DNA of 64,000 nucleotides, from assembly GCF_014279975.1 (NCBI RefSeq), contig NZ_CP047936.1, forward strand, positions 1,240,001-1,304,000, given 5' to 3'. Of the stretch, positions 1,743 to 3,232 are shown piece after piece. Below the pieces are notes generated by a model that was given only the letters and a program-made list of their open reading frames with translations, ran no database searches and was not told the DNA's origin. The translations under genes and the position numbers were made by a program. Each line of letters begins with the position of its first letter. Position 1 is the stretch's first letter. Origin of the DNA: Synechococcus sp. BIOS-U3-1. GTDB lineage: Bacteria > Cyanobacteriota > Cyanobacteriia > PCC-6307 > Cyanobiaceae.

Positions 1743-1947
1743 ACAGTTTTTACACTCATTACTCAAGCTGTTAATCAGTTGTAATGCAATTCTGATTAGT
1801 GCTTCATATCAATGTATAGATACTGTTAAACTAAATTACTTTCTCTTTGATGTATTATTGCGTGTTAAATTTTGGTTTCAGATGAATCTGACGATTTAAG
1901 TCAATGCCGTATGGGTATTCGTAGGACCCAAAATGTTTTTTGGGGCT

Positions 1948-2877
1948 TTAAGCAAAAATCATGTCTGAATTAATCAGTGGCGGTGTGTACAGGCTTATGT
2001 CGTTGCCGTCACCAGCTTCATAGGAGATAAACAAATTAATTTTTTTTCCATAGATGCTTTCGAACTCACCAAGTGATTGGCCTTCCTTGGTTTTGTCAAA
2101 TTCTCCACTTAATTTGCCATCAATTTTGGCTATGAGGAACTCTTGGCCTCTCCGCAGTTTGTAATCATCAATTAGAGAAACATCAAGCATTCCACCACTA
2201 ATAATCATGTCTCCTGATACATCGATGAAATCATATGTAGTTTTGGTTCTGTCTCGATTCCTATCGTCATCACCGTTTATTTCGATCGAGATGTTCCCAT
2301 CAGATTTAAAATAGTCGCCATTGAAGAGCATTCCCCCTGTTGAATTTCCAGGATGGACTTGTCCGTGATCAGTCCAAGAACCAACGATTGATCCATTTCC
2401 TGTCAATATTCCGCCATTGTAGAATTTTGATGCATCTTTAGTCTTATTAAGGATTGTACCGTTGTTTATAATCGAACCAACGCCTGAATTGTCAAACTCT
2501 CCATTGATCTCGATTGTCGCTAAGGACTCATTCAAAATTTTTCCATTATTTCCAAGTACTCCCTTTTCTCTGATATAGACCGTCCCTTTCATCCCATTCT
2601 TGAAACGGCCCGACGTATTGGGTGTGTTAAAGGCGAAGTATCCGGACGTATATATCTTCCCGTAATTTTCGAGCGTTCCGAGTTCTAAAGTTGTGAATTC
2701 TGTTCCTTCACCGACGTTGATATAGCCTGTATCGTAAACATAGATGTCTCCAGAATTTCCGAATTGCCCTTTAGTGATGGACAGGCCACCATAAATTGAG
2801 TAAGTATTAGGATATTGATTCGAGTCGGTATTGAAAACCGTTTCTCCCTTGGGAATGGTGCGATTGGTTTGAGGCAT
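1948..2877 (-). CDS. Autotransporter-passenger-like beta-repeat protein, no export module seen
   Basis: This is a 309-residue protein dominated by short repeats with the pattern N-x-G-x-I (NSGDIYV, NYGKIYT, NNGKILN, NNGTILN) at roughly 20-30-residue spacing over residues ~35-150. That pattern is typical of a right-handed beta-helix. Residues ~155-190 resemble the autotransporter-associated strand motif (ILTGNGSIVGSW...GQVHPGNSTGG...FNGDY). After it come FIDVSGDMIISGGMLDVSL and a FLIAKIDGKLSGEF segment, as at the end of many passenger domains. There is no N-terminal signal peptide and no C-terminal barrel, so secretion would need a separate system such as type I, with aspartate-rich text (INGDDDRNRDR) noted near 210. 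The gene is AT-rich and probably acquired. Fold inferred; function unknown. Confidence 0.75.
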   Translation of the reverse strand: MPQTNRTIPKGETVFNTDSNQYPNTYSIYGGLSITKGQFGNSGDIYVYDTGYINVGEGTEFTTLELGTLENYGKIYTSGYFAFNTPNTSGRFKNGMKGTVYIREKGVLGNNGKILNESLATIEINGEFDNSGVGSIINNGTILNKTKDASKFYNGGILTGNGSIVGSWTDHGQVHPGNSTGGMLFNGDYFKSDGNISIEINGDDDRNRDRTKTTYDFIDVSGDMIISGGMLDVSLIDDYKLRRGQEFLIAKIDGKLSGEFDKTKEGQSLGEFESIYGKKINLFISYEAGDGNDISLYTPPLINSDMIFA

Positions 2878-3232
2878 TGATTTCTTTCCGCTCCCTCTAT
2901 GGTAATGGAATAATTCGCTTTCGACTACATCTTTAATTTAGTAACATACTACTCGGCTTAGAGTAGCTTGCCTTCGAGCACTTTTGATTGAAATGTCACT
3001 GATTAATTTTCCCGTCCGCCAAGCGAAGTGATTTGAAAAAGTCCGACATTCTTTTTCGAAACAAAGTTTACTAAAAGGCATAATTAGTGTCTGTTTTGTA
3101 TTGGCAATTGGTTTAATTCAAGAGCTGTGCAACCAATTATCATTGAGCAGTTTTGATGAATAGACCTAATGAGCTTATTAGGTTAAAAAAATTGCAGAAT
3201 CGCTATGCTGTTTCAAACCTGACTAGGCACTG
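2878..3232. other. AT-rich intergenic region between divergent genes
   Basis: This is 355 bases between the divergent repeat-protein gene and the lipoprotein gene. It is AT-rich with scattered A/T runs and must contain promoters for both genes, but I could not pick -35/-10 pairs with confidence. No ORF, RNA gene, inverted repeat or terminator of note was seen. Confidence 0.5.

Follow-up and report, generated by a model that had tools for sequence, protein, structure and literature searches.

A short, RTX-less beta-helix gene of Synechococcus sp. BIOS-U3-1 belongs with the signal-peptide-less exoproteins of picocyanobacteria

Background

How could a protein with the look of an autotransporter passenger leave the cell when signal peptide and barrel are both missing, and is it exported at all? 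These questions are raised by a gene in a 64,000-nt stretch of the Synechococcus sp. BIOS-U3-1 chromosome (hereafter, the window), which a first-pass annotation had described as an orphan autotransporter passenger, possibly secreted by a type I system or left over from a larger adhesin. We suggest, with a probability of roughly 55%, that it is instead a short, RTX-less, still functional and probably exported member of the type I-secreted, signal-peptide-less beta-helix exoproteins of picocyanobacteria. Counting against this, the 309-aa protein is devoid of RTX repeats and has no type I signal that can be recognised at its C-terminus, so that its export is a prediction.

Results and discussion

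The gene, its product and the predicted fold

The gene is a 309-codon ORF, and the opposite (forward) reading of the same span is full of stops (Table 1). The N-x-G-x-I repeats reported earlier are above chance: N-x-G-x-[ILV] motifs occur five times (residues 41, 71, 110, 138 and 154) against 0.79 expected by composition shuffling, a count reached in 0.05% of 2000 shuffles. The PGNS motif is likewise present, at residues 176-179. No hydrophobic stretch was found in residues 1-50 (best 12-residue Kyte-Doolittle mean 0.35), in agreement with the claimed absence of a signal peptide, and the protein contains no cysteine. Pfam and NCBIfam searches returned no significant match, hence no barrel domain and, in Pfam, no glycine-aspartate nonapeptide repeats (PF00353); a single-sequence search of the PDB gave nothing significant. 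The missing translocator was thus correctly noted, and a look for lost flanking domains, proposed at the time as a check, yielded no barrel or RTX remnant in any downstream frame. The low GC content is also real: 40.5%, compared with 55% for pucC next to it and 53% for the whole window.

Table 1. Features of the 309-aa gene and its surroundings (positions in the window)
Feature	Position	Strand	Basis
RTX-less beta-helix exoprotein gene, 309 aa	1948..2877	-	ORF; paralogue and relatives; AlphaFold2 beta-helix
N-terminal motif MPQTNRTIPKGET	2839..2877	-	shared with relatives as [NI]PKGxT near the N-terminus; without signal peptide
Fast-evolving beta-helix repeats with N-x-G-x-[IVL] rungs, residues 8-150	2428..2856	-	
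C-terminal cap, a conserved autochaperone-like module (GGILTGNGSI...PGNS...GDGNDISLYT), residues 152-299	1981..2424	-	
Short tail, residues 300-309, ending INSDMIFA, replaces RTX block of relatives	1951..1980	-	
AT-rich (33-40% GC) species-specific segment holding the gene	1745..3232	.	comparison with congeners

Structure prediction, also named as a check, gave a beta-helix and no other fold. The AlphaFold2 model (20-sequence alignment) is continuous and all-beta, with a mean pLDDT of 80.3 and a pTM of 0.79; its C-terminal half is mostly above pLDDT 90 and its N-terminal rungs are less certain. Comparison of the model with the PDB (VIA-align) produced beta-helices throughout, among them the helix at the C-terminal end of Serratia Ssp (Z 16.7, 198 residues, rmsd 2.8) and the passengers of other autotransporters such as Hap (Z 16.5), pertactin (Z 16.3) and UpaB. 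A profile of the family found Ssp (8e7f) by sequence alone (E 1.7e-4), and 14 of the 20 aligned members, the 309-aa protein not being among them, matched the NCBIfam model for EprS, an autotransporter serine peptidase. A beta-helix of the autotransporter-passenger fold is supported by these predictions.

Nearest relatives carry RTX repeats in place of a barrel

A first genome scan with the 309-aa protein alone as query detected no relative. Matches of any kind to its family are confined to 8 of 400 genomes of the host's taxonomic family, the close relatives lying in Prochlorococcus sp. MIT 0701 (G059), G100 and G087. A paralogue is present at a different locus of the same chromosome as a 379-aa ORF, 46% identical over residues 59-308, with a likely TTG start at residue 27 of that ORF, giving MGKQISPNPIPKG.... 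The [NI]PKGxT motif appears in the paralogue as ISPNPIPKGVT, in the G087 protein as MGNQISPTTNPKGTT and in a 499-aa ORF of MIT 0701 as MANQNYPNPNPKGNT. About 2 kb from the paralogue, a small ORF (L021:10313-10594, minus strand), MTTSFVSENTDQELSIQDLKAANGGG..., looks like a double-glycine leader peptide of the bacteriocin/prochlorosin type.

Two MIT 0701 exoproteins of 885 and 588 aa (L014:6055-8712 and L015:2600-4366) have the same layout as the 309-aa protein, with no signal peptide, N-x-G repeats and a PGNS...GNDIELYT cap that is 44-49% identical to its own. After the cap come PF00353 RTX repeats (E 7e-10 and 1e-7), then a C-terminus that is type I-like and ends in LLDVDKDEFLAA[ND]CID[YF]I, whereas the 309-aa protein stops before these. 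The same succession of N-x-G repeats, PGNS...GNDIELYT cap, RTX repeats and type I secretion-like end is seen in the G100 proteins, and the G087 protein has a DUF4214 domain where those of MIT 0701 have RTX. No barrel or signal peptide was found in the relatives from these three genomes. As judged from RTX biology (PMC3034196), the RTX-bearing relatives without a Sec signal should use the type I route. The earlier mention of type I secretion therefore suits the family, whose nearest full-length members have RTX and neither barrel nor signal peptide. The 309-aa protein itself is without RTX.

Picocyanobacterial proteins with N-x-G repeats and a PGNS...GNDI-LYT cap form one supported clade, separate from other cap-bearing proteins. 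Beyond this family, the cap occurs in barrel proteins (L008, L101 and L107), in a long RTX-type protein (L009), in proteins with PEP-CTERM-like tails (P0001, L067 and L082) and in further proteins of Planctomycetota, Verrucomicrobiota, Chloroflexota and Pseudomonadota. The PEP-CTERM-like or tail-anchored passengers (Rhodobacteraceae SC52 QIE43695.1; L067, L082) share the cap module with the 309-aa protein, unlike which they have a hydrophobic sorting or anchor tail after it. The three barrel proteins are signal-peptide-bearing autotransporters of marine picocyanobacteria, and one of them (L101, in G003) comes from the host's own genus. A scan of viral contigs recovered no relative of the 309-aa protein; there were no phage matches and one distant plasmid match.

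Type I secretion in the host and the C-terminal tail

At 97-102 kb of the host chromosome (G000:C1), an ABC transporter (987 aa), an HlyD-like adaptor and two RTX proteins are encoded side by side, and TolC-like proteins are encoded elsewhere in the genome. A protein with no N-terminal signal thus coexists with an ABC transporter, an adaptor and a TolC-like protein. Within the window there is indeed no secretion system, as stated earlier, but type I components are found elsewhere on the same chromosome. In the cluster at 97-102 kb (L027, L028, L038, L050), the two tandem RTX proteins are nearly identical and ~430 aa long. At 185-189 kb, two metallopeptidase-like RTX proteins (L026 and L036) differ in their N-terminal halves, but their long C-terminal halves, which contain a poly-glycine linker, are almost the same, pointing to recent duplication or gene conversion.

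The tail of the 309-aa protein, SDMIFA, consists of an acidic residue followed by hydrophobics, and that of the paralogue is similar (NPEMIFGYR). A comparable motif at the terminus is required by some type I-secreted proteases. An acidic residue ([DE]) plus three hydrophobics closes 1 of ~57 unrelated ORF ends, a background drawn from the loci examined, and both complete family copies, which are homologous and so count as one observation of a weak motif. Judging from this sequence pattern, the tail makes export of the 309-aa protein possible. More speculatively, and on balance improbably, the whole RTX-less lineage might be exported by the type I system through this minimal acidic-hydrophobic tail, dispensing with calcium-driven RTX folding and leaving the folding to the autochaperone-like cap.

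A variable genomic site

The purK-pucC interval is variable within the genus, and the two short ORFs flanking the gene are conserved. The gap between them measures 61 bp in three genomes (G009, G018 and G014), holds ~450-550 bp of unrelated sequence in three others (G017, G008 and G028) and extends to ~1.5 kb in the host, with the gene inside. A relic in G028 occupies another slot of the same interval, directly after purK. No integrase, tRNA, Rfam RNA or clear repeats were found at the site of the gene, and a mobile-element origin is unsupported, a single short and imperfect pair of inverted repeats being all that was seen there. Promoter and terminator scans at the gene performed no better than shuffles. 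We conclude that the gene is accessory: its intergenic site is variable, and the segment that holds it is AT-rich and species-specific.

An old short form, maintained or decaying

The 309-aa protein ends where the RTX block of its relatives begins, and the paralogue stops at the same place; together with the G028 fragment, both end within ~15 residues after GDGNDI-LYT. In the family tree these three copies are monophyletic (support 100/100). Given the identical end point of the paralogue and the single clade of RTX-less copies, the short form must be old rather than a product of misassembly. The suggestion that the gene is a remnant of a larger adhesin is therefore supported insofar as RTX and the C-terminal block are missing, but not in the sense of a recent truncation. 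We infer that the short form would have arisen once, in this Synechococcus-like lineage, when the tail with RTX and the secretion signal was lost; alternatively, RTX may have been gained on the Prochlorococcus branch, loss and gain being indistinguishable in a tree whose root is not fixed. The short form would then have been retained and duplicated, and would have come to lie at variable sites between genes.

It is possible, though less likely, that the gene is a non-functional remnant, its RTX/secretion tail lost, its product unexported and its sequence slowly decaying in the AT-rich variable region. The absence of an export signal of known type agrees with this, as does the state of other copies: the one in G028 (L020:7340-7654) is a fragment with an internal deletion, in which the NPKG start motif, lying just upstream, is followed almost at once by the cap, and both G100 copies (L017 and L018) have interrupted reading frames, those of MIT 0701 being intact. 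Such degraded and interrupted copies mark the family as readily gained and lost and suggest that it is prone to decay. The repeat half also evolves fast, with a dN of 0.84 between the gene and its paralogue. However, all 309 codons are open, the N-terminal motif and the cap are preserved, and the intact paralogue has the same end. Moreover, the cap is under strong purifying constraint (dN 0.36, with dS ~3, near saturation), and change per codon position between gene and paralogue reaches 0.55 at third positions versus 0.26-0.35 at first and second. These sequence comparisons show that the two complete copies are under purifying constraint and bear the marks of a maintained protein; part of this constraint may predate the RTX loss, and what is seen between the two paralogues could partly predate two independent losses.

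Descent from an autotransporter that lost its barrel is very unlikely. The fold and cap do resemble autotransporter passengers, and the genus itself includes barrel autotransporters whose cap is distantly related (G003). One example of the likeness is the Serratia Ssp passenger (PDB 8e7f; PMC9977779), which shares the C-terminal beta-helix, the autochaperone-like rungs and the hairpin cap, the last rungs of its helix having been described in these terms (PMC9977779), but Ssp also possesses a subtilase domain as well as signal peptide and barrel, none of them present in the 309-aa protein. Among the features of type Va secretion, the beta-helical passenger with an autochaperone-like end is recovered in the AlphaFold2 model, the PDB comparison and the 8e7f profile match; the Sec signal peptide and the C-terminal barrel translocator are absent. 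A barrel type would need the Sec signal that the whole clade lacks, and the nearest relatives have RTX (DUF4214 in G087) where a barrel would be expected. The label of orphan autotransporter passenger is therefore misleading. Truncation through assembly error or frameshift, suggested by an end lying exactly at a domain boundary, is hardly credible in a single-contig, 99.9% complete genome with no RTX relic in the downstream frames and a paralogue at another locus that has the same end.

Conclusions

The 309-aa gene is an RTX-less member of a known, ordinary class of exoproteins, correctly noticed and misfiled as an autotransporter orphan. Under the preferred reading, that of a functional and probably exported short form, the protein would form a small, rigid beta-helical rod that carries a folding cap. 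The host's own type I system would probably export it by way of the short acidic-hydrophobic tail, and on the cell surface it would serve as a coat component or in an adhesin-like role. The same beta-helix and cap module is found together with a barrel, with RTX repeats, with sorting tails or with no recognisable partner, and barrel-less passenger-like proteins should therefore be compared with type I exoproteins before they are called autotransporter remnants. If the short form is indeed exported, it would provide a small test case for the minimal needs of a type I substrate.
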